Shown here in pieces: positions 7,479-46,706 of a stretch of DNA of 64,000 nucleotides (positions within the stretch are counted from its first letter, which is position 1; the number at the start of each line of letters is the position of its first letter). Origin of the DNA: Candidatus Kryptonium sp. (GTDB lineage: Bacteria; Bacteroidota; Ignavibacteria; Kryptoniales; Kryptoniaceae). A program made the translations under genes and the position numbers. Below the pieces are notes generated by a model. The model saw only the letters and a list, made by a program, of their open reading frames with translations, was not told the DNA's origin and made no database searches. The DNA is taken from positions 434,001 to 498,000 of the forward strand of contig JANXBN010000001.1 in NCBI GenBank assembly GCA_025060635.1. Direction: 5' to 3'.

Positions 7479-9140
7479 ATGCATCGTTTAATTTTCACTT
7501 TAATTTTCTTAAGTGTTGTAATTGCGGATTTTAGTAGTGCGCAAAGCCTGCCTGATACCATTATTATTTCAAATTTTTCCACCTATATTGACAACACATT
7601 AAGCCAAGGGGTTGATGCTTCTGGTTCGTCAGGTTACCTAATTTTGAAAACGAGCGAGCAAGAAAATCTCGCAAGAAGAAGGAGAGCGACGGTGACTTAT
7701 TATGGAACTGGCGAGCCTAAAACCGCCACGGGGGATAGGGATACTGTAACTGGAAATCCTATGAGGGCAATTGACGGTGATACTAGAACATTTTTCCAGA
7801 TAAGACCTGGAGGAGATGGAAGTTATATCTTAATTGATCTACTTGCCTTGAGAAGAATTAACAAAGTGATTATTGTAACCTTTGGCTTAAATCAAGCGTT
7901 GAGACCAAGAGCTTATACAATTTATGTGGGGACGGATTCGCTTCAGCTTACCAGAGTTGTTCAGAGAACAGATAATCAAGATGTAAGGACTCTTGATGTC
8001 TTTGATCCAGTTATTGCAAGATTTGTTAAAATAACTTTTGATGTCGTTGATAGACTTAGCTCAACTGTGATATCCGAAATAGAAGTTTATGGGGTTGGAT
8101 ATCTGTCCTCTGGTGAATATTATTCTAGGGTTATTGATGTAGGACAACCTGTTAATTGGGGATGGGCTGAATGGAATGCTGAACTGCCTGAGGGGACAGG
8201 AATAACTTTTCAATTTAGAACAGGTCCAACAGCGAGTATTAATGATAGTTGGAGCCCGTGGTCAAAAGAAATTTCTAAATCTGAAATAATTAGGGTAACT
8301 GAACCACGGCGTTATATTCAGTTCAAAGTAAATTTATCAACAACGACGACCGAAACACCTGTATTGAAAAGGCTTTTAATTTTTTATAATAAAAGACTCG
8401 TCGCCAGAAATATAATTCTTGAAATTCAACCTACTGTTGTACCGATCTTGAGAAGGACAGAGATAACCTGTAATTTTGATGTTGAGGCGGATACTGCTTC
8501 ACTTGGTATTGATACTTTAGTTGTGTTCACTCCATCTCCAGCAAATGTTGAATCTGTAACTTTAAATGGGAATCCTGTTGCATATTCAGTTGTGTCAACT
8601 CCTGAATATGTGAAGATAGCTTTTCAACAATCAATTAGGTCAAGCGCCAGAATATCTGTCAGGCTAAGTTTAACTCTTTATCTTGATATAAATGAATTTC
8701 CAGCGGTTGCAATAAGTAGGGCAACGGCATCAAATCCTCAATTCGTTGATACAAGGAGAAGAGGTAATCTAAACAGTTGGACTGTTCTAACAACCGATGT
8801 TCCTGAGAGATTGATAGTTGATTTACAAGTTAATCCAAATCCATTTTCTCCAAATGGCGACGGCATAAATGACAAAGTTCAAATTAGTTTCTTTCTTGCA
8901 AATCTTTCTGTAGAAAGAAATTTGAAAGTTCAAATTTTTGATCTCACGGGTAGGCTTGTAAGGACGATTTTTGATGGTCCAAGCAAAGCATTTGCTTATA
9001 TTTCTTCAAATTCATTTTCGTGGGATGGAAGAGATGAAAACGGAAAACTTGTAAGACCTGGTGTTTATTTGTTGAGAGTTGCGATAAACGCTGACAGCGG
9101 TCCTGAGTCAATTTTTAGAACTATAACCGTTGTTTATTGA
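7479..9140 (+). CDS. Secreted discoidin-like protein with C-terminal FlgD-like Ig domain
   Basis: A 553-residue exported protein with a Sec signal (residues 1-21, ending FSSAQS). After about residue 65 it has a discoidin/F5-8C-like galactose-binding fold, seen in AIDGDTRTFFQI, YILIDLLALRRINKVII and ARFVKITF followed by ISEIEVYGVG. A middle part of beta sandwiches follows. The last 100 residues begin NPNPFSPNGDGINDKVQI and continue with LKVQIFDLTGRLVRTI and GVYLLRVA, the FlgD-like Ig domain that often ends proteins exported by type IX-like systems in this group. It is first in the operon, 19 bp before a PorV-like gene. Probable surface or periplasmic binding protein; the ligand is unknown. Confidence 0.8.
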   Translation: MHRLIFTLIFLSVVIADFSSAQSLPDTIIISNFSTYIDNTLSQGVDASGSSGYLILKTSEQENLARRRRATVTYYGTGEPKTATGDRDTVTGNPMRAIDGDTRTFFQIRPGGDGSYILIDLLALRRINKVIIVTFGLNQALRPRAYTIYVGTDSLQLTRVVQRTDNQDVRTLDVFDPVIARFVKITFDVVDRLSSTVISEIEVYGVGYLSSGEYYSRVIDVGQPVNWGWAEWNAELPEGTGITFQFRTGPTASINDSWSPWSKEISKSEIIRVTEPRRYIQFKVNLSTTTTETPVLKRLLIFYNKRLVARNIILEIQPTVVPILRRTEITCNFDVEADTASLGIDTLVVFTPSPANVESVTLNGNPVAYSVVSTPEYVKIAFQQSIRSSARISVRLSLTLYLDINEFPAVAISRATASNPQFVDTRRRGNLNSWTVLTTDVPERLIVDLQVNPNPFSPNGDGINDKVQISFFLANLSVERNLKVQIFDLTGRLVRTIFDGPSKAFAYISSNSFSWDGRDENGKLVRPGVYLLRVAINADSGPESIFRTITVVY

Positions 9141-9159
9141 AAAATAACTTCGCTTTTTC

Positions 9160-10083
9160 GTGATGAAAAAAATCATTTTTTTTACGGTATTTGTCATTTT
9201 GCATCTTAACTTTGCTTGCTCAGGTGCTTTCAAGGATCTTGGGAATGGGGCTCGGGCTGTGGCTTTGGGTTTAACTTATGTTGCTATAGCTGATAATCCA
9301 TACGCTATGTTTTATAATCCCTCTGGAATTGGACAGATAAAAAGGTTAAGTTTTGCTTCAAGTTATTCGCGGCTTTATCCATTTGTTCAGGGTGAAAATT
9401 TATATTATTTAACATTCTCTGGTGTTTTGCCTGTTTTTTCATTGTTTGATTTTGGGGTTGGAGTTTCTTACTTCAAAACTGGCATGTGGAACGAGAATCA
9501 ATTTGTTTTTTCAATTGCGAGAGAATTTAAGTATATCAAAGGTTTATCTTTGGGCGGAAATTTAAAAATTTTAAGGTGGTCTGCAGTTGCCCCAATTGGC
9601 GAGTCCGGATATTCATATTTTGGATTCACATTTGACGCTGGAGCGATTTTCGTATGGCGCGATTTTATAAATGGTTCTGATTTTAGATTTGGATTAACTG
9701 CGCGAAATATAACACAGCCAAGTATTGCGGTTAACAAATCAAGAGATGCGAAACTACCACTTGAAATTGCTGGTGGTGTTGTTTATGTTTCAAGAACTTA
9801 TAATTATCAAATTGGTTTGGGCGCTTTAAGATCAGGTGATGAGTTAAAAGTTGATGTCGGATTTGAGATTCAAGCTATTTCGGCGGAGTTTTTAAGAAGT
9901 AATTTTGAATTTGTTATCAGGGCTTCTGGTGGAACAATCATAAATGGTGGTAAGCAATCAAGTTTAAATCCAGGATTTGGAATAAGATACTGGAAATTTA
10001 GGATTGACTATGTATATGTTCATCAGTTTGAAATATCCGATGCAGGCGGTAGCCATAAATTTAGCATTGAATTTAATCTATAA
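9160..10083 (+). CDS. PorV/PorQ-like outer-membrane beta-barrel
   Basis: A 307-residue protein with an N-terminal signal and the family opening GNGARAVALGLTYVAIADNP followed by YAMFYNPSGIGQI, the pattern of PorV/PorQ (UPF0164-like, FadL-related) outer-membrane proteins. The rest is alternating aromatic beta strands ending SHKFSIEFNL, as in barrels. PorV shuttles type IX cargo in Bacteroidota; whether this paralogue does so is inference, supported by the FlgD-tailed protein just upstream. The open frame can start at GTG 9160, but the adjacent ATG 9163 (MKKIIFF) is the more natural start. Confidence 0.8.
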   Translation: MMKKIIFFTVFVILHLNFACSGAFKDLGNGARAVALGLTYVAIADNPYAMFYNPSGIGQIKRLSFASSYSRLYPFVQGENLYYLTFSGVLPVFSLFDFGVGVSYFKTGMWNENQFVFSIAREFKYIKGLSLGGNLKILRWSAVAPIGESGYSYFGFTFDAGAIFVWRDFINGSDFRFGLTARNITQPSIAVNKSRDAKLPLEIAGGVVYVSRTYNYQIGLGALRSGDELKVDVGFEIQAISAEFLRSNFEFVIRASGGTIINGGKQSSLNPGFGIRYWKFRIDYVYVHQFEISDAGGSHKFSIEFNL

Positions 10084-10104
10084 AAAATTTTTGATTCACT
10101 TGCC

Positions 10105-13065
10105 ATGAAAAAATTTCTTATGTTGGCACTTTTAGCCATCGGTTTTGAAACAACATTTGCGCAATTTATCGCAAGAGACAAGGAAAGCTATCTTAATTAT
10201 TCAGGGCGAAATTACGAAAATTACAGCATCTCGTTTTTAAGAAAAAGGTTCTATGATAACTTTGGGAATTTTTTGATAGATGGGAGTTTAATTTTTGAGT
10301 TGCTTGAGAATCAAAGACAATTTACGGGGCAGGAGCTTGGTGGATTTAGTAGCTTGACAAAATCAAGGTTTTATTATCAATACTTCCAGAATCTTGTGAT
10401 CGCCAGCGATAATTATAGTGATTTTCAAACCAGGTTAATGATCGGTGATGCGATAAGAACAAAGTTTACATCTCTCACATTTGATAAAGCGAGGTTTAAT
10501 GGCGTGCGATGGGATGGAGCTACAACAAAGCACAGAGGAACATTCATAGTTTCAAGGACAAGTGATCCAGTAAGATTCAGATTTGATACACCTCTTTTAA
10601 TAGATGGTATTCAAAGGGTGCGAAATTGGGCTCAATATCTATTCGGTGGACATTTTGAAACAGACATTGGAGATGTTCTAACAATTGGTGCAACTTATGT
10701 AAATCAACATACAAGAAGAATGGATGTTAACGCTCGCGATGTCCCTTTTAAAGGTGTCCCGCCAAATGGTGTGCCGAGAATAATTTTCGTCAGGATAAGC
10801 GACGATTCTCCGAGAGATGGTTCAGGTCCGATAATTTACTCTGATCCAGTTGTAAAAATTAATGGCAGAGTTGTTTCAACTAAAAATATAAATGGTAAAG
10901 TTCCAACTGCCCAGGAAACAGTTTTAGGAGCTCCATTACAATACTACGTTTTTAGGAACTTCAGCATTGATAGAACACTTTGGGTTGCTGGAGCTGATAC
11001 ATTAAGCTACACTGCGTATACTCCAATTCAAGGTGGACCTGGTTATAAATTCAGATCAATGTTATCAGCACTGCCTGTTTATCCAGAGCGAATACCAAGC
11101 GATGGAAATATAACTTTTGCTTATATAATTCCACCTGGAGTTGAATCGGTTGAATTTGAGCTTATCGTTGCAAATGATTTTAAAATTGAAGCAGCTCATG
11201 ATTTTGTTAATCGTCTTGATGATTGGGAGGAAACCGGTGGAGCGAGGTTTATTCCTCATTATGACTCAGTTGCAGTTGGAACACCGACATTTTTCCGTTT
11301 GATAAAAAGAGCTGATGGAAATGTAAAAGATGCTTCAAATCGTCAAATAGTAAGATTCAATTACGCTCTTACAACTGGAATGAGCGTGTATAGTTTAAAC
11401 TTCAAATTTAACTGGAGAGGCTTTAACATAGAAGGTGAATTTGCTCAAAGTTTGGAATGGTCAAAGTATCCAGTTGGTCGCGGTCCTTGGTTTACACAAA
11501 AGGGAAATGCTTTTTATATAAAAGCATCAAAAAAAGTTGGACGATTGACATTCGGATTTGAACGATATAGAATTGAACCAACATATACAACTGCTCTCAA
11601 CATTTATTCACTTGAAAATAGTTATTACATGATGTGGACCGGCTCTGGCTACGCTTATCTTGCGCCTGATGTTTATGGAGTGACTGCTTATGATGTTTCA
11701 AGTGGTATATCATTTATCCCTGGTGGTGCTTATTTTTCGCTTGTTGATGATAACGATGACAGAGACAGATGGGAAGATGGATTTTATTTCTACAATGCAA
11801 CGCCAAATCCAACTTTTGAAAACAGCGATGTTTTGAACCCAACGCCCGATCCGTTTTTGCTTGGTTATAGGCAAAACGCAAATGAATTAATTGGTTTAAC
11901 AAGTATAATAAGAAGACCTGATGCTGGTATATTCCCTGGCAAGGATAGAAATAACGACGGGATACCTGATGATGATCAAAACGCAAATGGAATTCCAGAT
12001 TACCAAGAGGATTTTCTTACATATTACAGCGATCCACCAATTTTTGATTATGGCGATGATTGGAACAATAATGGTGTGATTGATGAGCAAGAAAATGATA
12101 TTTATCCAGATTATCCTTATGAGCCAGACATAAATGGATATCATGCTTTTACAAAGATAAATCTTGCAAGAGGTTGGACAGCTCAAATTGGTCTCATAAA
12201 TGAGAGAGCGATTGCAAGAGGTGGAGCAAATCAAGTTTCTTATATAAAGACATTTTATACGACTTCAAACCCGCGTTTAGGTTCCCTTCTTTTATATTAT
12301 GTCGCAAAAAGAGTAAGGGATGAAGTTCCAAACCCAGTTTATCAATACAAGGGCGTCATAACTATAACAAGCCCTTTCCCAGTTTTCACGGAAGACCAAT
12401 TAAGATATAGAAATAGTTTTGTGCATAACCTTTATCTTGAAACAAGATACACTCAAATCCCAAACCTTAATATTGAAAATAGAATTCGTTTTGAGCTTAA
12501 TTTCCAACGCCCGCTTGGAGATCCTACGAGAGCTTTGCTACCAGAAGCAAAATACACGGGTGATCAACTTGACGGAAGAATTACGCTTTGGGGCCTCGTC
12601 CATAAAATTGATTACACCCTTAAATTCTTTAATGGTCGTCTTGAAATAAAACCGCAATTTAAAATCAGGACCGTTAAAGAAACAAAGCTTGGTTATGTTG
12701 ACATCGGTGGAAATTTAAGAAAAATAACAAACATAATTCAGCACACGCAAGAGACGATCCCGATTTTTAGAATAGGATATAAATTGACGGATAGATCCGT
12801 TTTTAACTTCGGAGTTCAAGGTTTGAGCATCGTTGGTTTTCCTGAATTGTTTTCTTACAGGATAAGAAACTTAAAGGACGATTCTGGAAGCGAGAATAGA
12901 GGAACGATAGCATTTTCGCTTACGAATCAGAGCTCTTATAAAGGTTACTCAATAGTTGTTGACTTTGGGTATAAATTCACAAAACGAAAGTTCATAAAAC
13001 CAGGTGAACAAAAATATAGCAGAGATGAGTCAGCGATATTTTTCACAGTTATCGCTGGGTTTTAA
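10105..13065 (+). CDS. Large outer-membrane protein of unknown family with calcium-loop insert
   Basis: I do not recognise a named family for this 986-residue protein. It has a clear signal peptide (MKKFLMLALLAIGFETTFAQ) and long runs of alternating polar/aromatic strands from about 20-220 and 720-986, ending in an aromatic-rich strand (AIFFTVIAGF), which suggests a beta-barrel. Around residues 613-660 there are thrombospondin-type-3-like calcium loops, for example DRNNDGIPDDDQNANGIPD and NNNGVIDEQEND. It lies between the PorV-like gene and the TPR gene, 21 and 18 bp away, so it is part of the same operon. It may be the outer-membrane component of the ExbB/ExbD-linked machine, which is inference. 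Confidence 0.75.
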   Translation: MKKFLMLALLAIGFETTFAQFIARDKESYLNYSGRNYENYSISFLRKRFYDNFGNFLIDGSLIFELLENQRQFTGQELGGFSSLTKSRFYYQYFQNLVIASDNYSDFQTRLMIGDAIRTKFTSLTFDKARFNGVRWDGATTKHRGTFIVSRTSDPVRFRFDTPLLIDGIQRVRNWAQYLFGGHFETDIGDVLTIGATYVNQHTRRMDVNARDVPFKGVPPNGVPRIIFVRISDDSPRDGSGPIIYSDPVVKINGRVVSTKNINGKVPTAQETVLGAPLQYYVFRNFSIDRTLWVAGADTLSYTAYTPIQGGPGYKFRSMLSALPVYPERIPSDGNITFAYIIPPGVESVEFELIVANDFKIEAAHDFVNRLDDWEETGGARFIPHYDSVAVGTPTFFRLIKRADGNVKDASNRQIVRFNYALTTGMSVYSLNFKFNWRGFNIEGEFAQSLEWSKYPVGRGPWFTQKGNAFYIKASKKVGRLTFGFERYRIEPTYTTALNIYSLENSYYMMWTGSGYAYLAPDVYGVTAYDVSSGISFIPGGAYFSLVDDNDDRDRWEDGFYFYNATPNPTFENSDVLNPTPDPFLLGYRQNANELIGLTSIIRRPDAGIFPGKDRNNDGIPDDDQNANGIPDYQEDFLTYYSDPPIFDYGDDWNNNGVIDEQENDIYPDYPYEPDINGYHAFTKINLARGWTAQIGLINERAIARGGANQVSYIKTFYTTSNPRLGSLLLYYVAKRVRDEVPNPVYQYKGVITITSPFPVFTEDQLRYRNSFVHNLYLETRYTQIPNLNIENRIRFELNFQRPLGDPTRALLPEAKYTGDQLDGRITLWGLVHKIDYTLKFFNGRLEIKPQFKIRTVKETKLGYVDIGGNLRKITNIIQHTQETIPIFRIGYKLTDRSVFNFGVQGLSIVGFPELFSYRIRNLKDDSGSENRGTIAFSLTNQSSYKGYSIVVDFGYKFTKRKFIKPGEQKYSRDESAIFFTVIAGF

Positions 13066-13069
13066 TTAT

Positions 13070-13077
13070 GGAGGTGA
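13070..13077 (+). promoter_or_regulatory. Strong Shine-Dalgarno for the TPR gene
   Basis: GGAGGTGA sits 6 bp before ATG 13084 and fixes that start. Most genes in this operon lack such a site, so translation of this gene is probably set separately. Confidence 0.75.
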
Positions 13078-13083
13078 AGCAAT

Positions 13084-16000
13084 ATGTGGAAAATTATCAT
13101 CATAGTCACATTAACTGCGTCAATAATTTCTAACTTCGTTCCGACGCCGCTTGAACTTCAGAAAGCTTTTACATCCGGACAAAACTTTTATGCAAGCGGG
13201 GACTTTAAAAAGGCAATAAAGCAATACGATATAATTATAAATACCGAAAGCAAACTTCTAAATGAGGACAGTGTAAGAGTTGCGCTTTTTCACGGAGATT
13301 TAGTGGTAAGCGTGAAAACAGCAGCTTATTATCAAAAAGGCAACGCTTTGAGAAAATTAAAGCGAAATGCGGAAGCAATTGAAAGTTTCAGAGTTGTTGC
13401 GGAACAAAGAAAAGATTCGCCTTGGCTCTCGGCTCTTGCGCAATATCAAATTGCCGATATTTATTACGATGAGAGTAAATTTGAAGAAGCGATAGCTGAG
13501 TCAAAAAAATTGATTGTGAATTTCCCCAAAGATGAGCGCGTTCCCAAAGCATATTACACTATTGGATGGGCGTTTAAGGAATTGAAAATGCTTGATAGTT
13601 CAATTTCCTACTTCAAATCGCTCGTTGAAAAATTCCCGCGCTCGGAGCTTGTCCCCCACTCAATGTATCAACTTGGACAAAACTATTATGATAAGGCAGA
13701 TTATAACACAGCAATTGCTTGGTTCAGAGATATCGTTGAAAAATTCAAACCTGAGAGATTCAAAAAGGAGGAATTTGAAAAAATTGAATTAAAAGCTGTA
13801 AGAGAGAGAAAAATTTTTGAGGCTGTAACTGGGCGTGAAGGTGAAGAGACACCTCTTGAGATCGTTGCAAAAGCAAGCTTGAGAATTGCGGATTGCTACA
13901 AAATGATGGATAACTTTGATGAGGCAATAAAATCATATAGAAATGTAATAGCAACATATACACTCCTTCCAAGTTTGATTGAGACGGCTTACATAAAAAT
14001 GGCTGAATACACTTTGCAAAAGAAGGGGCTTGAATCTGGAATTGCAGTTTACAAGGAGGCGATAGATAGAAGTTTTGAGAATAAGCAGTTGCAAGCAAAA
14101 ATGCAGTATTTGATTGCGAAAACATATCAAGATTCCCTTCTTTATGACAGGGCAGCGAATGAGTATGATTTTTATATAAAAGCGTATAGCGAAGTTGCGT
14201 TTTTAATTGATTTTCCAGTTGAGGATGCAACATATTCTAAAGTCATATGTCTTTACAACGCAAAGAAATATAAAGAAACAATTGCTGAATGTGATTCGTT
14301 TTTGATCAAGTTTCCCGGCTCTGATTATACTCCAGATATGCTTTTCTTCAAGGGGATTTCTCACCTTGCGATTGGAGATTATGCTTCGGCTGAAAGTTCA
14401 TTTGTTAAAGTGAAAACAGAATATAGAAATTCACCACAATACACGCCTGCTTGTATTCAGCTTGGTCGGACATATTATGAGTGGAAACGATATGACGACG
14501 CTTTAAATGAACTCAACAGATTGCTTGCAGAAAACCCGACAGATCTTAACAAAGATGAAGTTTACTACTACATTCTTTTGACTTATTTTGACACCCAGAA
14601 ATACGATAGTTTGCTGAACATCTTTGCTCTTATCAAACCTGGCTCAAGCTTTTATTTGCCTGCTTTCATCAAAGTGTCAAAGTCATTCAGTTTACAAAAC
14701 AAGTTTGCTGAGGGTGAAAAATTTATAAAAGATATTTTAAAAACAGCCGAAACTTTAAAGGATAGCATTTACTTCATTCCAGAGGTTCGTTTCTCGCTTG
14801 CTGATATTTACATTGGGCAGGGGAAGTATAAAGAAGCTATTGATGAACTAACGCTTGTCATAGATGATCCAAAAGCAAATGATATATTGAAACTTCAATC
14901 AATTTATGCTCGTGGTTCTCTTTATTACCAGATTGAACAATATAAAGAAGCGGTGATTGATTTTGAGAAATGTGTCTCGGATAAAAAATTCAGGGAAAAT
15001 TTACCTCAACTTGTTTCACAAGTCAACGAAAAATTAGCGATTTCTTATGTCAAAATTGGGCAAATTGCGAAGGGCGTAAATCTCGTCTCAAAGTTGATCA
15101 ATGAAGTGCCAGAGCCATCGGAAAAGATAAGATATACTGCTGTGCTTGCTGAAGCATATTTTGAAGCGAAAGATTACAAAAACGCTGTAAAATTTGCAAG
15201 TGATGTTTTTCAAAATGATGTTTCAGATGAAATTGTTTTCACAAAAGCAACATATGTGCTTGCTAACTCACACAGGGAACTTGGGGAATTTAACAAGGTT
15301 TTAAGTGTCCTGTCAAAAGCGGGTGAAAAATTTCCAAATTCAAAGTTCGTCCAAGAGGTTTTCTTCTCTACAGGAGCGGTTTATTACGATAAAGGCGAAT
15401 ATGAAAACGCAATTGAAATTTTTGATAGGTATCTGAAACTTTTCCCTAACTCTGAAAATTACAAGAGCGCCTTGTTCTTTTTATCATATTCGTATTTCCG
15501 ACTTGGATACTGGGATAAATCTGTGACATATTTCAGAAGGTTTGTAAGGGAATTTCCAAAAGATGAGTTTGCGCCTGAAGCTTACTTTAATATCGGTGAA
15601 TCTTATTACAACATGGCAAAGTATGAAGATGCTATTCGTGAATACAGGAATGTTTATAGGCTTTATCCTAACGATGAGCTTGCGCCTGTTGCTCTTTATA
15701 GCGAAGGTTGGTGTTATTACGAGCTCCAAAAACCAGAGCAAATGATTGAAACCTTTAAGCAACTTGTCAAGCGTTATCCAAAAAGTGAACACTCACCAAT
15801 TGCTCTCTTTACAATTGGAGATTACTATTATAATTCAAAAAATTATGCTAAAGCTCAGCAAGCGTATGAGGAATTTGTCTCAATGTATCCCGACCATGAA
15901 AAGGTTAACGAAGCGAAACAGCTTATAAAAGATCTGAAGCTGATAAATGTTTACGCTGAATATCAAGAAGCGATGAAGTACTTTGACAATAAGGATTATC

Positions 16001-16239
16001 GTCGCGCTATTGAGGAACTTACGAAGATATGGCAAAAATATCCTGATTCAGACATCGTTGTTGGTTGTCGTGTGAATATAGCTGCTGCATACGAACAGCT
16101 TGGTGATTGGCGAAAAGCTGCGAAGATGTATGAGGAGATAATTCGGGATTATGAAAATTCAACAGATGACAATGCTCGTGCAGCTGTCCTTTTTGCAAGG
16201 GAACATCTTGAATGGTTGAGAAGTAATTTCAATTTTTGA
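13084..16239 (+). CDS. Very large TPR-repeat protein, exported
   Basis: A 1051-residue protein made almost entirely of tetratricopeptide repeats after an N-terminal hydrophobic segment. Repeats are easy to see, for example ALAQYQIADIYYDESKFEEA, AYYTIGWAFKELKMLDSSI and AYFNIGESYYNMAKYEDAI, many with the YP-N/K-x-E/D linker of BamD/YbgF-type periplasmic TPR proteins. Such proteins scaffold envelope complexes; CpoB/YbgF plays this part next to Tol. Here it lies 23 bp before exbB, so a scaffold role for the motor encoded downstream is a reasonable inference. No catalytic motif is visible. Confidence 0.88.
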   Translation: MWKIIIIVTLTASIISNFVPTPLELQKAFTSGQNFYASGDFKKAIKQYDIIINTESKLLNEDSVRVALFHGDLVVSVKTAAYYQKGNALRKLKRNAEAIESFRVVAEQRKDSPWLSALAQYQIADIYYDESKFEEAIAESKKLIVNFPKDERVPKAYYTIGWAFKELKMLDSSISYFKSLVEKFPRSELVPHSMYQLGQNYYDKADYNTAIAWFRDIVEKFKPERFKKEEFEKIELKAVRERKIFEAVTGREGEETPLEIVAKASLRIADCYKMMDNFDEAIKSYRNVIATYTLLPSLIETAYIKMAEYTLQKKGLESGIAVYKEAIDRSFENKQLQAKMQYLIAKTYQDSLLYDRAANEYDFYIKAYSEVAFLIDFPVEDATYSKVICLYNAKKYKETIAECDSFLIKFPGSDYTPDMLFFKGISHLAIGDYASAESSFVKVKTEYRNSPQYTPACIQLGRTYYEWKRYDDALNELNRLLAENPTDLNKDEVYYYILLTYFDTQKYDSLLNIFALIKPGSSFYLPAFIKVSKSFSLQNKFAEGEKFIKDILKTAETLKDSIYFIPEVRFSLADIYIGQGKYKEAIDELTLVIDDPKANDILKLQSIYARGSLYYQIEQYKEAVIDFEKCVSDKKFRENLPQLVSQVNEKLAISYVKIGQIAKGVNLVSKLINEVPEPSEKIRYTAVLAEAYFEAKDYKNAVKFASDVFQNDVSDEIVFTKATYVLANSHRELGEFNKVLSVLSKAGEKFPNSKFVQEVFFSTGAVYYDKGEYENAIEIFDRYLKLFPNSENYKSALFFLSYSYFRLGYWDKSVTYFRRFVREFPKDEFAPEAYFNIGESYYNMAKYEDAIREYRNVYRLYPNDELAPVALYSEGWCYYELQKPEQMIETFKQLVKRYPKSEHSPIALFTIGDYYYNSKNYAKAQQAYEEFVSMYPDHEKVNEAKQLIKDLKLINVYAEYQEAMKYFDNKDYRRAIEELTKIWQKYPDSDIVVGCRVNIAAAYEQLGDWRKAAKMYEEIIRDYENSTDDNARAAVLFAREHLEWLRSNFNF

Positions 16240-16262
16240 AAAATAAATCTTGGTGACTGTTT

Positions 16263-17129
16263 ATGTTGCTTTTAATTCAGCAAAAATCGTGGTGGTCTTG
16301 GCTTTGGGATAATTGGCTTGTTGATATCATCATCAAGGGTGGACCTTACATAATGGTTCCTCTTTTTATCTTTTCGGTAATTTCAATGGGGATAATAATA
16401 GAGAGAATTTATCGGTATGTTCGCATTCCAAAGGACAAAAAAATAGCGCAGATGCTTGAGGAAGTTGAGAAGATTTTAAAGGAAAACAAAAAGATTGAGC
16501 CAGTTGTTAGATATTTTGAGGAGCAAAGAAACGCTCTTTCTTTTGTGTTTCTTTCAATCTTGAAAAGGTATGAGTTCCTTCTTCAAGAAAATCGGCAAAT
16601 AAATGATATGCGTCAAGAATTGATGGAAACAGCGGTGGGTTCAACATCAGATTATCTTGAAGAGTTTTTGCCTATAGTTGCAACGATTGCTAATGTTGCG
16701 ACATTGCTTGGACTCTTTGGGACAATAATTGGTATGATCATGTCGTTTGATGAACTTGCAAAAGGTGGTAGAGGTGATCCAGCGGTCGTTGCACAAGGTA
16801 TCTCAGTTGCTCTTATAACCACCGCTGCGGGATTAACAGTTGCGATTCCATCTATACTTGGATATAGCTTTTTGAGAAGGCGAGCAGAGAAAATAACGAA
16901 ACACCTTGAACCGTTTGAAAATCATTTTGTCAATACGCTTTTGCGTGAGCACGGGAGAATTGAAGCTTACAAAGTTATAGTTGCAAGCATTTTTAGAATA
17001 AGAAATGGAAACTTGAGCGAAGAAGAGAAGGAGTATTTGAGGCGCAAACGAATTGAGCTTGATATTTCAGACGAAGAAGCCAAGATTATAGAAAACGAAG
17101 TGATCAAAAATTTGGAACAGAAAAAATAA
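16263..17129 (+). CDS. exbB: ExbB/TolQ/MotA-family proton channel with C-terminal extension
   Basis: ExbB-type proteins form the pentameric channel that, with ExbD, converts proton flow into work on the periplasmic side. This one has a membrane helix at about 28-48, then a cytoplasmic domain, then helices at about 136-160 and 178-204 with TIANVATLLGLFGTIIGMI and ISVALITTAAGLTVAIP, the conserved pore-lining pair. It is 288 residues long, more than the usual 200-250. The extra is a charged cytoplasmic tail from about 230, including GNLSEEEKEYLRRKRIELD and ISDEEAKIIENEV, which I cannot assign to a known domain. It is followed by exbD after 12 bp. Confidence 0.92.
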   Translation: MLLLIQQKSWWSWLWDNWLVDIIIKGGPYIMVPLFIFSVISMGIIIERIYRYVRIPKDKKIAQMLEEVEKILKENKKIEPVVRYFEEQRNALSFVFLSILKRYEFLLQENRQINDMRQELMETAVGSTSDYLEEFLPIVATIANVATLLGLFGTIIGMIMSFDELAKGGRGDPAVVAQGISVALITTAAGLTVAIPSILGYSFLRRRAEKITKHLEPFENHFVNTLLREHGRIEAYKVIVASIFRIRNGNLSEEEKEYLRRKRIELDISDEEAKIIENEVIKNLEQKK

Positions 17130-17141
17130 TTACGCCTGAAA

Positions 17142-17564
17142 ATGAAGAAGAAAAATAAAAATGGCGACTATTCAGTTGACATTAACCTAACTCCAATGAT
17201 TGATTGTGTTTTTCAGTTGTTGATATTTTTTATGGTGACAACTGTCTTTGCAGTTCAAAGTGGTTTAAAGGTTGATCTACCAACAGCAGCTTCGTCCGAT
17301 GCTCCACCAGAAAAGGATTTGACAATTGTCATTTCATCAAATGGCGAAATGGACCTGAACGGAAGGCGAGTTACATTTGATAACTTGCAGGAAGAGATGT
17401 TAAAAGATAAGGAGATATTTGGGAGCAAGGTTTTGATAATTAAGGCGGATAAAAAAACACTGCATGGAATAGTTGTAAAAGTTATGGATATTGCAAAATT
17501 ATGCGGGATTGATCAACTCGCCATAGCTACTGAGAAGGAAGAAGAGGAAATTCAAGTTAGATAG
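17142..17564 (+). CDS. exbD: ExbD/TolR-family biopolymer transport protein
   Basis: A 140-residue partner of ExbB with one membrane helix and a periplasmic domain. The helix contains INLTPMIDCVFQLLIFFMV, with D21 at the position of the essential proton-carrying aspartate of ExbD/TolR. The periplasmic part has the usual beta-strand and VLIIKADKKTLHGIVVKVMD pattern of these domains. It is placed between exbB and the TonB-like DUF4159 gene (7 bp). This supports a functional motor but does not tell whether its output is Ton-like or Tol-like. Confidence 0.93.
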   Translation: MKKKNKNGDYSVDINLTPMIDCVFQLLIFFMVTTVFAVQSGLKVDLPTAASSDAPPEKDLTIVISSNGEMDLNGRRVTFDNLQEEMLKDKEIFGSKVLIIKADKKTLHGIVVKVMDIAKLCGIDQLAIATEKEEEEIQVR

Positions 17565-17571
17565 TTCGGAA

Positions 17572-18828
17572 ATGGAGAACAGAAATTATAAAATACCAGG
17601 GATTGAATTAAGCGATAGGATAGCGCAGTTTATCTACGAGAACAGAAAAGGGCTATTGAAGTTTTTGTTAATTGCGTTTTTGATTCATAGCATTCCTGTG
17701 ATTTTAAATGTTAGATTGCCGGAGAAGAAAGAGATAAAGCGACCACCAACAACTGTAAAGTTTATCCAAAGACCACCGCGTTTGACGAAGAGCATTGAGT
17801 TCAGAAAAATGCCCACTATCGTTGAGCGAGTTCTTCAAAGGTTTGTGTCACCTCAAAAGCCTCGGATGTCGGCTCGTTCAATGACAACCGCGGCAGTTCA
17901 TGGAGGAACATCGCTTGCTTCGCTTGCAAGACCTGGCGAGTATATTGAGAGAACTTATTCGCCACCTGCGATGTTAGCAGGACCGAGCTTAAATTACGAC
18001 ATAACTGACACACGACATGCTGGAAAAACGATAAAAAGTTTACAGGAAGAATTGATAAGTTATACAAACTTTATGGATAGGTTTGAAGGTTGGCTTGAGC
18101 GTGGGCGAAGCAAAGAAGATTGGAGAGGTTTTTTGAATGTTTATCAAGTTGAATACAGAAGCAGTAAATCTGCTCCGAATGGGGAACCTATGTGGAATTA
18201 TAGACCAGCAGCGTTGCAAAATCTCCAAAGATATGCTATGGAAGTTTTGCCAAATCTTCAGCTCAATCTTATGGGTTCAATTCGCCTTGATTCAAAAAAT
18301 ATACTTGATGTCCCAATTCTTATAATGATGGGCTATGATGGTGAGGTGATATATACAAAAAATGAAGTGGAAAACCTTGCCAAATATCTTCGTTCAGGTG
18401 GATTTCTATTTATTGACGATGGGCTTGCCTCTGCGTATGGTCCATTCACAAGATCAGTAAAACAACTTATCAAAGATGCGCTCGGTTATGACGCCGTTTG
18501 GGAAAGAATTCCGAACAATCATCCAATTTATCATATTTGGAAAGATTTTGATGGTCCTCCTGCCGGCGATGACCTTGCAAGAGTTGATACAAGAAGACCA
18601 GCGCGCGAGGTTTATAATTACCTTGAAGGAATTTGGCTTGGAGGGCGTCTTGCGGTTGTGTTGTCAAATCGTGGATATACGCAAGCTTGGGGTGATTGGC
18701 CATATGCAACTCCACCCCTTGATAACGCAAGACAATTACAAATGGGATTAAATATACTTATATTTGCGATGAATCAACCTGGAGGAATCGTTGCGAAAAA
18801 TAAACAAAAAGTCGTGATGCAACAGTGA
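17572..18828 (+). CDS. TonB-like membrane anchor fused to a DUF4159 domain
   Basis: A 418-residue protein of unusual build. Residues 1-26 are cytoplasmic and 27-47 form one membrane helix (LLKFLLIAFLIHSIPVIL) with H39 inside it, reminiscent of the histidine in the TonB helix that engages ExbB/ExbD. A lysine/proline/arginine-rich periplasmic stretch follows (EKKEIKRPPTTVKFIQRPPR), as in TonB. Instead of the TonB C-terminal domain, residues about 187-405 are a DUF4159 domain, with VYQVEYRS, GGFLFIDDG, NNHPIYHIWKDFDGPPAGDD, YLEGIWLGGRLAVVLSNRGY and RQLQMGLNILIFAMN. DUF4159 has a predicted class I glutamine-amidotransferase-like fold and no known role. The gene lies 7 bp after exbD. I infer that it transmits force from the motor to an unknown partner. 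Confidence 0.85.
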   Translation: MENRNYKIPGIELSDRIAQFIYENRKGLLKFLLIAFLIHSIPVILNVRLPEKKEIKRPPTTVKFIQRPPRLTKSIEFRKMPTIVERVLQRFVSPQKPRMSARSMTTAAVHGGTSLASLARPGEYIERTYSPPAMLAGPSLNYDITDTRHAGKTIKSLQEELISYTNFMDRFEGWLERGRSKEDWRGFLNVYQVEYRSSKSAPNGEPMWNYRPAALQNLQRYAMEVLPNLQLNLMGSIRLDSKNILDVPILIMMGYDGEVIYTKNEVENLAKYLRSGGFLFIDDGLASAYGPFTRSVKQLIKDALGYDAVWERIPNNHPIYHIWKDFDGPPAGDDLARVDTRRPAREVYNYLEGIWLGGRLAVVLSNRGYTQAWGDWPYATPPLDNARQLQMGLNILIFAMNQPGGIVAKNKQKVVMQQ

Positions 18829-18860
18829 AACTAACACACAAAAATTTAATTTTATTTAAT

Positions 18861-18865
18861 GGAGG
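18861..18865 (+). promoter_or_regulatory. Strong Shine-Dalgarno before the first lipoprotein gene
   Basis: GGAGG lies 9 bp before ATG 18875, in the longest gap (46 bp) inside the operon, and supports that start. Confidence 0.7.
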
Positions 18866-18874
18866 CGATTTAAA

Positions 18875-19717
18875 ATGAAATTTAATTTTTTACTTTTACT
18901 TTTTGCTTTGACATTTTGGGGTTGTGCTTATTTTTTGAGCGAAAATTATGAAGAGCAGAATAAACCAATCGTTGAAAATGTCCTCGCTGTTTCCGATACG
19001 CTTGCAACGGTTGTTAAAGATAGCGTTAAGGTAAGCGTAAAACTTTTGACACCAGAAGAAATCAGGAAAATAAGCTCGGGGAAAAGATACGATAAAAAAG
19101 ATTTTGAGAAAATTTTGAAAGATGAGTATATAAACTACGCACAAGATGACAACGCAGAAGTTCTTTCAGCTTATAATGAATACATCCACCTACAGGAGCA
19201 AGGAAATTACTATGATGTCTTTGGAAATCCGATATCACCTCAAGGCGTCCCAAGTCCATTTGAAGATGACTTTGGAAAAATTCCATACCTCGTTTTTGAT
19301 GTCACAATTGAAAATTTACGCTCAGACAAAATAGAAATAAAACCATCCGCAAGCGTCTTGCTTGATGATAAGAGAAATCAATTTAGGGCTCTTGAAGTTG
19401 ATGATATAATTCAGACGGAACCGATACCATATCAAATGAGATATATAAATCCATACACGATCTATGATCCGTTTCTTGCTGGTTATTTATTGAATATGCA
19501 AAGAAGAGTTGAACTTAATAAAAAGTTTTTGAGAGATATTTTGCTCCGTGATGAGAAAATTTATCCCGGTGTTATTAGAAAGGGATTGATAGTTTTCAAA
19601 AAGCCTGTTGAAAAAGTTAAATGGCTTCTTCTCGTCATCCCAGAGGTCGCAATTTATGAGAACAATGAGAAAGTGAAATCCATTGACTTTAGATTTGAAT
19701 TTGTAAATGAAAAATAA
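18875..19717 (+). CDS. Lipoprotein, N-domain paralogue of the following DUF4159 lipoprotein
   Basis: A 280-residue lipoprotein (signal ending LTFWGC, C17). No named family is recognised. Its body, from PYLVFDVTIENLRSDKIEI through LLDDKRNQFRALEVDDII to PGVIRKGLIVFKKPVEKVKW, matches the middle of the next protein (FTVFKVSIYNYTAPKINF, LLSDRGDRFIAYGLDA, GDSREGLIVFDPLSEGVERI). The two therefore share an immunoglobulin-like beta domain, but this one lacks DUF4159. It is expected to be anchored in the outer membrane facing the periplasm. It follows the TonB/DUF4159 gene and is 14 bp before the DUF4159 lipoprotein, so it is probably a partner in the same machine. Confidence 0.82.
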   Translation: MKFNFLLLLFALTFWGCAYFLSENYEEQNKPIVENVLAVSDTLATVVKDSVKVSVKLLTPEEIRKISSGKRYDKKDFEKILKDEYINYAQDDNAEVLSAYNEYIHLQEQGNYYDVFGNPISPQGVPSPFEDDFGKIPYLVFDVTIENLRSDKIEIKPSASVLLDDKRNQFRALEVDDIIQTEPIPYQMRYINPYTIYDPFLAGYLLNMQRRVELNKKFLRDILLRDEKIYPGVIRKGLIVFKKPVEKVKWLLLVIPEVAIYENNEKVKSIDFRFEFVNEK

Positions 19718-19731
19718 ATTTTTGCTGAAAA

Positions 19732-21207
19732 ATGAAAAAGATCTTGTTGGCTATTTTGATGTCATTCATTTTGAGTGGTTGTGATAGCGTCTATCGTTTT
19801 CTTTTGTTGCCACCTCAAAAAGTTGAGTATGAAATTCTTCCAGATGTAGAAATGATTAAAACGATCAAAGATACGAGCTATTATATTGGAAAGGATTCAA
19901 TGACGATTGTTTTTGACAAGGGCACTTTCAAAGTTGAAATTAAATATATGAGCGATTATCAGCTGAATAACTTTGAGTTTCCGGAGGAATCAAAAGGTGG
20001 AATTTATTCAACAAATCCTTATACATATGGAGATTGGGTTGATCCTGAGCTTGGCTATACTCCAAATCGTTTCACCGTTTTTAAAGTTTCAATTTACAAC
20101 TACACTGCGCCGAAAATAAATTTTGATCCAGAAAATGCTATTTTATTAAGCGATCGTGGGGATAGATTTATTGCATACGGGCTTGACGCCAAGACTAGCA
20201 AGTTTCATAGCATAGAGGAGTATTACAGGGCAAGGAAGGGTTCCTCCGGTATTGATGAAGAAGTTTTTGAGGCAAGAATGGGAATAGCAAGAAGAACAAT
20301 GCTAACTTACGGGCGACCGCTTTATAAAGGTGATAGTAGGGAGGGATTAATTGTTTTTGATCCATTATCGGAAGGTGTGGAGAGAATAAAAGTCGTGTTG
20401 AAAAATTTCATAATCGGTTATGATGAAAACAATGTTCCAAGCGATTTTATTGATATAAATTTCTATTTCAAGCGAGTTCCAATAATTCGTAGGACAGAGG
20501 AGGCAGGTAAGTTGGTTGCGATCGGTGGTGAAAGCGTTGACATAAAAACGATTAAAGATAGGGAAATAAAAATTTTCCAGGTAAAATACGGAGGGGATGG
20601 TGAAGAGATAGTTGAATCTGGTTTAAAAAATCTCATTGAATTTCTAAATAAAAAAGAAGGTTTAAATATCACTCTTGAAAGCGGGCGAGCGGAATCTCCG
20701 AGTGTTTCTAAATCCGACCTTGTTGTGATCAGTGGCGGTGTGGTGAAACCACAGTTTTCTCCATTGGCAATTGATAATTTCGTTGCGTGTATAAGAAACG
20801 GCGGAATTATTTTAATAGATGACTTGAGCCACTCAAGATCAAGTCAGTTCAATCTTGGAGCCAGAGATTTGCTTGATAAAATAAGAGCAAGATTTGAAAG
20901 AAGTTATATTGAAAAAGTTTTTCTCTCCCATCCCATATATTCAATCTGGGCTAAAGTAAAAGAATTACCGCTCGGAGCAGACGATATAGTTGAAACAAAG
21001 GAATTTGAGAAAGAAGAAAAATATACATACCTTGAGGGACTTTTCTGGCAGAAAAAATTGATAGTTGTCTTCTCAAACAAAGGTTATATGCGGATACTTA
21101 GCAAATTTGATAATCCATCCATTGATAATACATCTCAACTTCAACTTTTCTCCAATATACTGCTCTACGCGGTTTCAACTAAACAGTTGGCTATGAAATC
21201 AGAATGA
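19732..21207 (+). CDS. DUF4159-containing lipoprotein
   Basis: A 491-residue lipoprotein with lipobox LSGC (C17). Residues about 50-250 repeat the beta domain of the preceding lipoprotein. Residues about 278-486 are a second DUF4159 domain that lines up with that of the TonB-like protein: KIFQVKYGG, NGGIILIDDLSHSR, SHPIYSIWAKVKELPLGADD, YLEGLFWQKKLIVVFSNKGY and SQLQLFSNILLYAV. The domain is thus presented once on an inner-membrane anchor and once on a lipid anchor in the same operon, suggesting the two DUF4159 modules meet in the periplasm. Catalytic residues cannot be named with confidence. It is the last gene of the operon and ends 6 bp from a convergent peptidase gene. Confidence 0.85.
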   Translation: MKKILLAILMSFILSGCDSVYRFLLLPPQKVEYEILPDVEMIKTIKDTSYYIGKDSMTIVFDKGTFKVEIKYMSDYQLNNFEFPEESKGGIYSTNPYTYGDWVDPELGYTPNRFTVFKVSIYNYTAPKINFDPENAILLSDRGDRFIAYGLDAKTSKFHSIEEYYRARKGSSGIDEEVFEARMGIARRTMLTYGRPLYKGDSREGLIVFDPLSEGVERIKVVLKNFIIGYDENNVPSDFIDINFYFKRVPIIRRTEEAGKLVAIGGESVDIKTIKDREIKIFQVKYGGDGEEIVESGLKNLIEFLNKKEGLNITLESGRAESPSVSKSDLVVISGGVVKPQFSPLAIDNFVACIRNGGIILIDDLSHSRSSQFNLGARDLLDKIRARFERSYIEKVFLSHPIYSIWAKVKELPLGADDIVETKEFEKEEKYTYLEGLFWQKKLIVVFSNKGYMRILSKFDNPSIDNTSQLQLFSNILLYAVSTKQLAMKSE

Positions 21208-40359: not shown

Positions 40360-43056
40360 ATGAGGAGGCACTTAACAATTTTTCTTTCTTTGCTTTTCGT
40401 TGCTGGTTTAATTTATGGGGGAACGAAGGGGAAAATCGCTGGAAGGATAGTTGATGCTGAAACAAAGGAACCTTTGCCAGGCGTTAATGTGGTCATTGAA
40501 GGCACAACGCTTGGGGCAGCAACAGATGTAAATGGATACTATGTTATAACAAACATACCACCAGGAACATACACCGTCGTTGTTTCGGCAGTTGGATATA
40601 GAAAGATAACTGTGAAAAATGTTAAAGTTTCAGCTGATCTTACAACGACTTTAAATTTTGAATTAGAGCCTGAGGCGATTGGGCTTCCCCCTGTTGTTGT
40701 TGAGGCAGAGCGTCCACTTGTTAGAGCTGATTTGACATCTTCACAAGCGGTGGTAGATGCTGAGCAAATCAGAGAATTACCAGTTGAAAATTTTCAACGC
40801 GTTCTCACCTTGCAAGCTGGGGTTGTGGTAGGTGCTGGAGGTGATATTCATATAAGAGGTGGTAGATCCAGCGAAATAGCATATACGATAGATGGTGTCT
40901 CAATTAACGATCCATTTTTCAATACGCTTGGAATGCAGATAGCGCGGAACGCAATTCAAGAGATGACAGTTGTAAGTGGAACATTTAATGCGGAGTATGG
41001 TAACGCTATGAGTGGAGTTGTTAACATAGTGACAAAAGAAGGTGGATCAAAATATACTGGTGAGTTGCTTGTTTATTCAGGTGATTTTGTTAGTAGGAGG
41101 AAAAATATATTTTTCAACATTGATAAAATTGAACCATTAAATAATTCGGTGGTTGAATTCAGCATCGGTGGACCAGTTCCTTTGTTGGGCAAATTTGTTT
41201 CGTTCTTTTCATCTTTGAGATGGGAAAATAACAAGGGATGGCTTTATGGCGTCAGGGAACATCAACCAAGTGATCAACCTAACTTTAATGATGCAAATAA
41301 CTGGATTGTCCCGATGACTGGGGATAGCGCTATAGTGCCAATGAACCCGAGCAGAAATTTGAATACAACTACAAAGTTGACATTCAAAATCTCGCCAACC
41401 ATTAAGGTTAACATTGATGGACTTTATGACAAAAGTTGGTATAAAACATACAATCACCTTTTCAAGTATAACCCAGATGGAACCTACCAATATCATGACG
41501 AAAACTACAAAGTTGGCTTTACATTGTCGCATGCGTTAAGCAACAGAACATTTTACGAACTGAGAGTTTCATATAATTATCAAAAGTTCCGTCAGTATCT
41601 TTATGAGGATCCACTTGATCCGAGGTATCAACCTATAGAAAGGTTAGCAAGACCGACGAGCTTTACATTTTATTTCGGTGGGACGCAAAACGATCATGTT
41701 TATAGAGATTCACGAACATTTTTAGCTAAATTTGATATAACAAGCCAGGTTTCGGATAAACATGAAATAAAAACGGGTTTTGAAGTACGGCTTCATAAGC
41801 TTGACTATGTTTATTTCACGGTTTTGAGAGATACTATCAAGTATTTGCAGCCGACCATTCCTGAGATCAATTCACCGTATCATAACAGGTATACACGCAA
41901 GCCGGTAATTTTCTCGGTTTATGTTCAGGACAAGATGGAGTACAAAGATATGATTGTTAATTTGGGTTTGAGATACGATTACTTTGATCCAAAGGCAAAT
42001 TACGCCAGATCTATTTGGTATCCAGATCCAAATGATCCAACAATTCCGCCTATAATTTTGCGTGATACTTTGGTAGGTAGAGCAAGCCCGAAGCATCAAA
42101 TAAGCCCGCGCCTTGGCGTATCTTATCCGATTACTGATAGAGGGATCTTGCACTTTTCATATGGTTGGTTTTTGCAAATGCCTCCGTTTACATATCTTTA
42201 CACAAATCCTGAATTTGAATCAGCTCTTTTCGTAGGAACGCCGACATTTGGAAATGCAAACTTAAAACCTGAAAAAACTGTCGCTTATGAATTTGGATTA
42301 CAGCAACAGCTTACAGATAATCTTGCTATTAACATCACTGGATTTTACAAAGATGTTCGTGATCTTCTCGCTTTGCAAAGAACAAGGATAAGTCAGGAAA
42401 AAGTTTATAACCTTTATGTTAACAAGGATTATGGGAACATAAAAGGATTTACATTCTCGTTAGTTAAGAGAAGATTGAAAGGAGAACTACTCGCAGCAAC
42501 ACTTGATTATACATATCAAATTGCGGAAGGAAACGATCCAAATCCAGATGCTTTCTTCATTGATTTGAAATCTGGTAGAGAACCGGAAAAGATTTTCGTT
42601 TATCTTGATTGGGATCAAACTCACACATTGAATGGGACTATAAGTTTAGGCATTCAGGACAACTGGAACTTAAGCTTCATTGGACAATACGGCTCTGGGC
42701 TTCCATATACACCTTTTGTTACGAACAATCGTCTTGAATTAAGAAGAAATAGCGAGCGCAAACCTCCGAGAATACAAGTTGATATGATGTTTGAGAAATT
42801 ATTTAGATGGTTTGGGTTGAGATGGAGCTTCTTTGTCAAAGTTTATAATTTATTTGATAATCTCAACGAGCGTTATGTTTATGATGACACTGGCACTGCA
42901 CAATACACACTTGCCAAGCAAAGAGGTGAAGGTATCGTTGTTGATCAATGGGTTGGTAAAATTCCAGGCGTTCATTCTTCGGATGAGTACTACACCAGAC
43001 CACATTATTATTATCCACCAAGAGAGGTTAGAGTTGGATTTTCAATTGGATTTTAA
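40360..43056 (+). CDS. TonB-dependent receptor with carboxypeptidase-regulatory domain
   Basis: An 898-residue outer-membrane receptor. After the signal (1-20) comes a CarboxypepD-reg-like beta domain at about 23-105 (GKIAGRIVDAETKEPLPGVN, TDVNGYYVITNIPPGTYTVV), then a plug domain (IHIRGGRSSEIAYTIDGVSI, FNAEYGNAMSGVVNIVTKEG), then a large barrel with aromatic strands that ends in EVRVGFSIGF. Such receptors import glycans, metals or peptides with energy from TonB. The following genes (surface protein, PorV-like barrel, sugar kinase, glycosidase, symporter) hint at a glycan or cell-wall fragment. No canonical TonB gene is in the window. Confidence 0.93.
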   Translation: MRRHLTIFLSLLFVAGLIYGGTKGKIAGRIVDAETKEPLPGVNVVIEGTTLGAATDVNGYYVITNIPPGTYTVVVSAVGYRKITVKNVKVSADLTTTLNFELEPEAIGLPPVVVEAERPLVRADLTSSQAVVDAEQIRELPVENFQRVLTLQAGVVVGAGGDIHIRGGRSSEIAYTIDGVSINDPFFNTLGMQIARNAIQEMTVVSGTFNAEYGNAMSGVVNIVTKEGGSKYTGELLVYSGDFVSRRKNIFFNIDKIEPLNNSVVEFSIGGPVPLLGKFVSFFSSLRWENNKGWLYGVREHQPSDQPNFNDANNWIVPMTGDSAIVPMNPSRNLNTTTKLTFKISPTIKVNIDGLYDKSWYKTYNHLFKYNPDGTYQYHDENYKVGFTLSHALSNRTFYELRVSYNYQKFRQYLYEDPLDPRYQPIERLARPTSFTFYFGGTQNDHVYRDSRTFLAKFDITSQVSDKHEIKTGFEVRLHKLDYVYFTVLRDTIKYLQPTIPEINSPYHNRYTRKPVIFSVYVQDKMEYKDMIVNLGLRYDYFDPKANYARSIWYPDPNDPTIPPIILRDTLVGRASPKHQISPRLGVSYPITDRGILHFSYGWFLQMPPFTYLYTNPEFESALFVGTPTFGNANLKPEKTVAYEFGLQQQLTDNLAINITGFYKDVRDLLALQRTRISQEKVYNLYVNKDYGNIKGFTFSLVKRRLKGELLAATLDYTYQIAEGNDPNPDAFFIDLKSGREPEKIFVYLDWDQTHTLNGTISLGIQDNWNLSFIGQYGSGLPYTPFVTNNRLELRRNSERKPPRIQVDMMFEKLFRWFGLRWSFFVKVYNLFDNLNERYVYDDTGTAQYTLAKQRGEGIVVDQWVGKIPGVHSSDEYYTRPHYYYPPREVRVGFSIGF

Positions 43057-43085
43057 AAATCAAAAACAAATTTTCTGCAACTAAG

Positions 43086-46685: not shown

Positions 46686-46706
46686 ACAAAGTTTCGGAGA
46701 AACGCT

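Follow-up and report, generated by a model that had tools for sequence, protein, structure and literature searches.

A TonB-like transducer with a DUF4159 end that probably drives an outer-membrane machine in Candidatus Kryptonium and related Ignavibacteria

The window analysed here is a stretch of 64,000 nt from Candidatus Kryptonium sp. (class Ignavibacteria; JANXBN010000001.1, positions 434,001-498,000), an organism with Kryptonium and Chrysopegis among its near relatives (93-94% protein identity). A run of nine genes occupies positions 7479-21207 of the window on the + strand, with intergenic gaps of 7-46 bp (Table 1); scans for promoters and terminators gave results no better than those from shuffled sequences. 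Both the extent of this run and the presence of a second DUF4159 domain, carried by its terminal lipoprotein, go beyond an earlier note on the same DNA.

Table 1. Genes of the nine-gene run, with positions in the window
Product	Position	Strand	Features
Exported protein, F5/8 type C (galactose-binding-like) and C-terminal CHU_C (type IX sorting-like)	7479..9140	+	First gene in the run
PorV-like / PorP-SprF-like putative outer-membrane protein	9160..10083	+	NCBIfam scores below cut-off
OMP986, 986-aa putative outer-membrane beta-barrel	10105..13065	+	N-terminus resembling a signal peptide; ends in Phe; long strands in a low-confidence model
1051-aa TPR protein with N-terminal membrane/signal segment	13084..16239	+	TPR families (Pfam)
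ExbB/TolQ-type motor subunit, 288 aa	16263..17129	+	MotA_ExbB E 4e-30
ExbD/TolR-type motor subunit, 140 aa	17142..17564	+	ExbD E 2.5e-31
Transducer, 418 aa	17572..18828	+	N-terminus, TM helix with A35xxxH39, linker, DUF4159
Lipoprotein LIPO1	18875..19717	+	Scored at 22 bits by the LIPO2 profile
Lipoprotein LIPO2, conserved N-terminal domain and divergent DUF4159 (281-480)	19732..21207	+	Pfam DUF4159 1.7e-7

The first product of the run is recognized by the Pfam families F5_F8_type_C (1.3e-10) and CHU_C (31.9 bits, above the cut-off of 27), and an orthologue of its gene is found in other transducer blocks as well. The second product is assigned more loosely, its NCBIfam scores for PorV_fam (59.9 bits) and PorP/SprF (27.6 bits) both lying below the cut-off of 90; together, these two genes (7479-10083) resemble the pairs of cargo and SprF-like protein of type IX secretion. 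Another surface-protein run, read from sequence only, lies at 40360-47732 of the window and comprises an 898-aa protein of the carboxypeptidase-regulatory-like plus barrel type, an exported protein of 1199 aa and, at 46707-47732, a second PorV-like gene. The motor genes of the nine-gene run proved genuine, as the earlier note had taken them to be: the nearest solved relatives of the window ExbB are TolQ and, in second place, ExbB, while the window ExbD attains its top NCBIfam score with TolR and carries D21 within an NLTPMID motif that aligns with solved ExbD/TolR. The separate LIPO1 gene is seen in Kryptonia loci only.

The open reading frame of the transducer begins 7 bp past the end of exbD, and the architecture described in the earlier note (a short N-terminus, one helix bearing H39, a basic and proline-rich linker, and a complete DUF4159 domain) was confirmed by the ORF, Pfam and AlphaFold2. 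In the AlphaFold2 model, built on an alignment of 17 relatives, helices span residues 11-23 and 25-44, with H39 inside the latter; residues about 45-160 are of very low confidence and may be read as a disordered linker, of which residues 47-105 are 41% K/R/P with a net charge of +12, and the folded domain extends over about 164-418. Pfam places DUF4159 (PF13709) on residues 205-400, covering profile positions 9-202 of 202 (E 8.7e-22) at 78.1 bits against a curated cut-off of 25.9, and finds no other domain in the protein. A TonB_C domain was found by neither Pfam nor NCBIfam, the fold search giving DUF4159/GIFT instead, and a vWA domain was found neither in Pfam nor among the listed fold matches. 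At the head of the fold matches stands a stand-alone DUF4159 protein, Hoch_4089 (4i66; TM-score 0.79 on the target, E 3.8e-12), followed by the N-terminal (GIFT) domain of IFT52 and then by flavodoxin, ThuA-like and amidotransferase folds. Thus, the amidotransferase-like fold proposed in the earlier note holds in the sense of a GATase/GIFT-like fold. The cysteine nucleophile of class I glutamine amidotransferases is nevertheless absent, and because the window protein contains no cysteine and its 17 relatives share no invariant one (one column has Cys in 10/17), classical catalysis of this kind is excluded. A binding role for the DUF4159 end is therefore more likely than a catalytic one.

In TonB and TolA, docking on TM1 of ExbB/TolQ relies on the Ser and His of the motif Ser-3X-His-6X-Leu-3X-Ser, and published structures place these two residues at the ExbB/TolQ TM1 contact (PMC12905483). 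Likewise, the transducer has a single N-terminal TM helix in which H39 is the sole residue invariant among the 17 aligned relatives; the helix His recurs in 29/29 of the N-termini read, preceded four residues earlier by Ser (genome families f12, f17 and f19) or Ala (Kryptonia and f4) in all of them, whereas the later L and last S of the motif are replaced in the window protein (N46, P50). The exchange of Ser for Ala raises no objection within this class, since three of the four class TonBs that lie beside ExbB-ExbD-ExbD sets themselves carry AxxxH. Moreover, a profile of the transducer N-terminus aligns with one of class TonB N-termini over 55 columns with an hhalign score of 34.3 (probability 76%; E 2.2e-5 for the single comparison), the His and the subsequent PP falling into register; as controls, the N-terminal parts of seven further operon-set genes scored 12.8-19.0, and when the TonB profile was shuffled block-wise 200 times, no shuffle reached 34.3, the best scoring 21.0.

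The survey of genomes covered the phylum of the window, and transducers were counted over 294 genomes of its class, for which f1, f4, f12, f17 and f19 are the genome-family labels of this analysis, f1 being Kryptonia. Orthologues of the transducer that share its layout are found in 29 of the 294, a recurrence far beyond chance, namely in heat-loving Kryptonia and certain related bacteria; every carrier seen is an uncultured genome, and the contigs are therefore incomplete. Outside f17, exbB and exbD lie in the transducer operon in 20/22 genomes, the remaining two being cut by contig ends, and they take three placements relative to the block: TPR-exbB-exbD-transducer-LIPO2 in Kryptonia, f12 and two f19 genomes (layout I); transducer-exbB-exbD-exbD-lipoprotein-LIPO2 in two further f19 genomes (layout II); and exbB-exbD-exbD heading the run in f4, one instance of which is seen only as exbD at a contig edge (layout III). 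Wherever the upstream side is readable, the gene immediately 5' is that of the TPR protein, whether the transducer itself or its exbB-exbD pair comes next. A fourth layout, without exbB/exbD, is that of f17 (0/7 genomes, two of them readable across the whole block), which keeps the SxxxH helix although its block has no linked motor; in the f17 genomes checked, other ExbB/ExbD sets are present elsewhere. The consistent adjacency to exbB/exbD on which the earlier note had staked the motor link is hence found in four families and fails in f17.

In the ExbB tree, the layout I proteins form one clade (100/100), whereas those of layouts II and III fall with TonB-type ExbBs (99/99). In one layout II genome (G342), a TonB-type ExbB-ExbD-ExbD trio is found in the transducer operon only, and no TonB_C gene was found beside it. 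Two ExbB lineages at three block positions argue more strongly for coupling than one adjacent pair would. Taken with the invariant His and the profile match to TonB N-termini, this operon linkage to two exbB/exbD lineages supports the earlier proposal that the protein is a TonB/TolA-like, PMF-coupled transducer ending in DUF4159. Several neighbourhoods in these genomes are of separate interest. In layout II (G342, L113 12970-13809), a PBP_like_2 (phosphate-binding-like) lipoprotein is encoded between ExbB-ExbD-ExbD and LIPO2, and in f17 (L041 11365-14031) the gene of an Amidase_2 protein (889 aa) that carries a type IX sorting tail lies directly 3' of the transducer, in the slot that exbB/exbD or LIPO2 occupies in other families. 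At G000:C1:188.6-190.4 kb, there is a second ExbB-ExbD-TonB_C locus, in which the transducer helix is without His at the usual place.

Stand-alone DUF4159 proteins served as a control for this linkage. They are present in 280/395 genomes of the phylum, mostly as a single copy, and although they share the domain of the transducer end (PF13709; e.g., 4i66), they differ from the transducer in having about 235 aa and no linker, and only 2/78 carry [S/A]xxxH within a hydrophobic stretch at the N-terminus. Because none of their 79 loci has exbB/exbD within 1.5 kb, the motor link belongs to the transducer branch only, and the first mechanistic clue for DUF4159 that the earlier note saw in it applies to that branch, not to the stand-alone proteins; in the literature library searched, no paper on DUF4159 was found. 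Genomes elsewhere in the phylum with several DUF4159 copies were considered as possible hosts of hidden transducers and rejected, as the extra copies are mostly stand-alone proteins of 240-340 aa, and the loci fetched from these genomes hold no exbB/exbD within 1.5 kb. As a separate observation, the stand-alone DUF4159 gene of the genome that contains the window (G000:C1:8013-12234) lies directly 5' of the gene for a 1125-aa DUF4175 membrane protein, a family for which the literature search returned one paper, on Acinetobacter antibiotic susceptibility.

The transducer, OMP986 and LIPO2 occur in an identical set of 29/294 genomes, with zero exceptions, while f4, f17 and f19 each contain carriers as well as non-carriers. 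Since their distributions coincide despite these mixed families, the three proteins most likely serve one process; co-occurrence and operon linkage of this kind indicate a shared process, not contact. OMP986 matches no Pfam or NCBIfam family and has no significant PDB match in sequence searches; its signal-like N-terminus, its C-terminal Phe in 7/8 rows and the long strands of a poor model (pLDDT 42.8) may point to an outer-membrane barrel, and it is chosen here as the presumptive partner of the transducer. LIPO2 has an invariant G16-C17 lipobox and an N-terminal domain of about 250 aa that is more conserved than its DUF4159 domain and is remotely related to LIPO1. A LIPO2 profile matches the DUF4159 domain of the transducer with E values of about 1e-27 to 1e-36, and it matches no stand-alone DUF4159 protein at E <= 1e-25. 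Similarly, the DUF4159 tree sets the domains of transducer and LIPO2 apart from the stand-alone proteins with moderate support (78/92), a result that is not taken as proof because several of the stand-alone rows are long or doubtful ORF picks. Together, the profile matches and the moderately supported tree suggest that both domains arose from a single duplication, and this apparent common origin prompts the more speculative suggestion of a periplasm-spanning contact between them.

Among known systems, TonB and TolA share with the transducer a TM helix bearing SxxxH, one half of the SHLS motif, and a disordered linker, which is proline-rich as in TonB; they also have ExbB/ExbD (TolQ/TolR) in the operon, as the transducer does outside f17, and outer-membrane partners are to be expected in both cases. 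They differ in their C-terminal end, where the transducer has DUF4159 in place of TonB_C, and, unlike the Ton and Tol-Pal systems, the transducer run has neither a TonB-dependent receptor family nor Pal, having instead a unique 986-aa barrel and a DUF4159 lipoprotein. The earlier note regarded the protein as a third type of transducer, a claim that must be given up, since Williams-Jones et al. 2025 have already described TonB-like transducers that end in vWA and are encoded next to TPR-tolQ-tolR-tolR, and state that further such systems remain to be found (PMC12204202). These vWA transducers consist of an SHLS helix, a disordered linker of about 100 residues and a globular end other than that of TonB (PMC12204202); they have in common with the DUF4159 transducer the TPR and tolQ/tolR-like neighbours, the helix and the disordered linker. 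Their C-terminal fold is nonetheless vWA, rather than the GIFT/GATase-like DUF4159 of the window protein, and what further distinguishes the latter is its strict co-occurrence with a dedicated barrel and a lipoprotein bearing the same domain. The transducer most likely works like TonB and the vWA transducers, though it is a member of neither.

The reading preferred here, and judged fairly probable, is that the transducer is a force arm of the TonB/TolA type, the C-terminal effector of which has been swapped for a non-catalytic DUF4159 (GIFT/GATase-like) binding domain that drives an outer-membrane partner. From these comparisons one may infer how the arm docks to the motor and transmits force, which partner it takes and what it achieves for the cell. 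The helix would dock via H39 at the edge of an ExbB5-ExbD2 proton motor; proton flow would turn or shift the motor, such that the disordered basic/proline linker is pushed or pulled across the periplasm, with the 1051-aa TPR protein serving as a putative periplasmic guide. The DUF4159 domain would then grip an outer-membrane partner, most likely OMP986 and/or LIPO2, and the energized step would open or move the outer-membrane complex, the output plausibly being the export, import or movement of the F5/8C-CHU_C surface protein from the same run.

Other explanations account for parts of these data. If the helix were a mere inner-membrane anchor, the protein would tether a periplasmic or outer-membrane complex and exbB/exbD would serve another transducer, which agrees with the f17 block without motor genes and with the replacement of the motif Ser by Ala in Kryptonia and f4. 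This explanation is, however, decidedly unlikely, because it accounts neither for an invariant His within an otherwise variable helix, nor for the profile match with TonB N-termini, nor for the two exbB/exbD lineages at three block positions; moreover, a search for TonB_C next to these motors found none. A tethering of an amidotransferase-like enzyme to the motor is very improbable; GATase-like folds do appear among the weaker fold matches, but the best are the stand-alone DUF4159 protein and the IFT52 N-terminal domain, and the cysteine pattern described above speaks against it. Envelope maintenance of the Tol kind, with the transducer standing in for TolA, the TPR protein for CpoB and the lipoproteins for Pal, so that the outer membrane is stabilized or constricted at division, draws on the affinity of ExbB to TolQ and of ExbD to TolR, on the TPR gene adjoining the motor genes and on the lipoproteins that end the run. 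It is nonetheless quite unlikely, given a patchy distribution (29/294 genomes) unlike that of an essential maintenance system, nine genes devoid of any Pal/OmpA-type peptidoglycan-binding domain, the inclusion in the block of an exported surface protein as well as a conserved barrel, and swapped ExbB-ExbD lineages.

Alternatively, the system could be a branch of type IX secretion, in which the PorV-like protein and the CHU_C cargo would feed into the ordinary SprA translocon, with the ExbBD-transducer set as an accessory motor. The CHU_C and PorV/PorP-SprF-like genes that open the run fit this explanation, as does the presence of SprA in 40/40 genomes tested, yet it is considered unlikely: SprA is equally frequent with or without the transducer, so the system is not needed for the T9SS, and the dedicated 986-aa barrel is not SprA. 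A replacement of the T9SS by the transducer system was likewise rejected; with SprA present irrespective of the transducer, the system is additional to the T9SS, from which it differs in having its own motor and barrel and in being missing from the SprA-bearing non-carrier genomes of the class that were tested. The CHU_C cargo and the PorV-like gene nevertheless suggest some contact between the two.

Carried further, the force-arm reading leads to a broader and more tentative proposal, possible rather than probable, that the Ignavibacteria possess a trans-envelope machine of their own powered by the PMF, in which ExbBD and the DUF4159 arm would drive a hitherto undescribed outer-membrane channel of 986 aa together with the PorV-like protein, the TPR guide and the DUF4159 lipoprotein, the paired DUF4159 domains of arm and lipoprotein forming the coupling joint; such a machine would be a motor system directed at the outer membrane and additional to the Ton, Tol and type IX/gliding motors. 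Very few routes are known by which proton energy of the inner membrane is carried to the outer membrane. TonB-like arms with a foreign end would now be of two kinds, the vWA type and the DUF4159 transducer, and the latter would link a DUF4159 protein to a proton motor. Moreover, specific candidate partners can be named, namely a putative barrel and a lipoprotein whose presence and absence follow those of the transducer in all 294 genomes tested.
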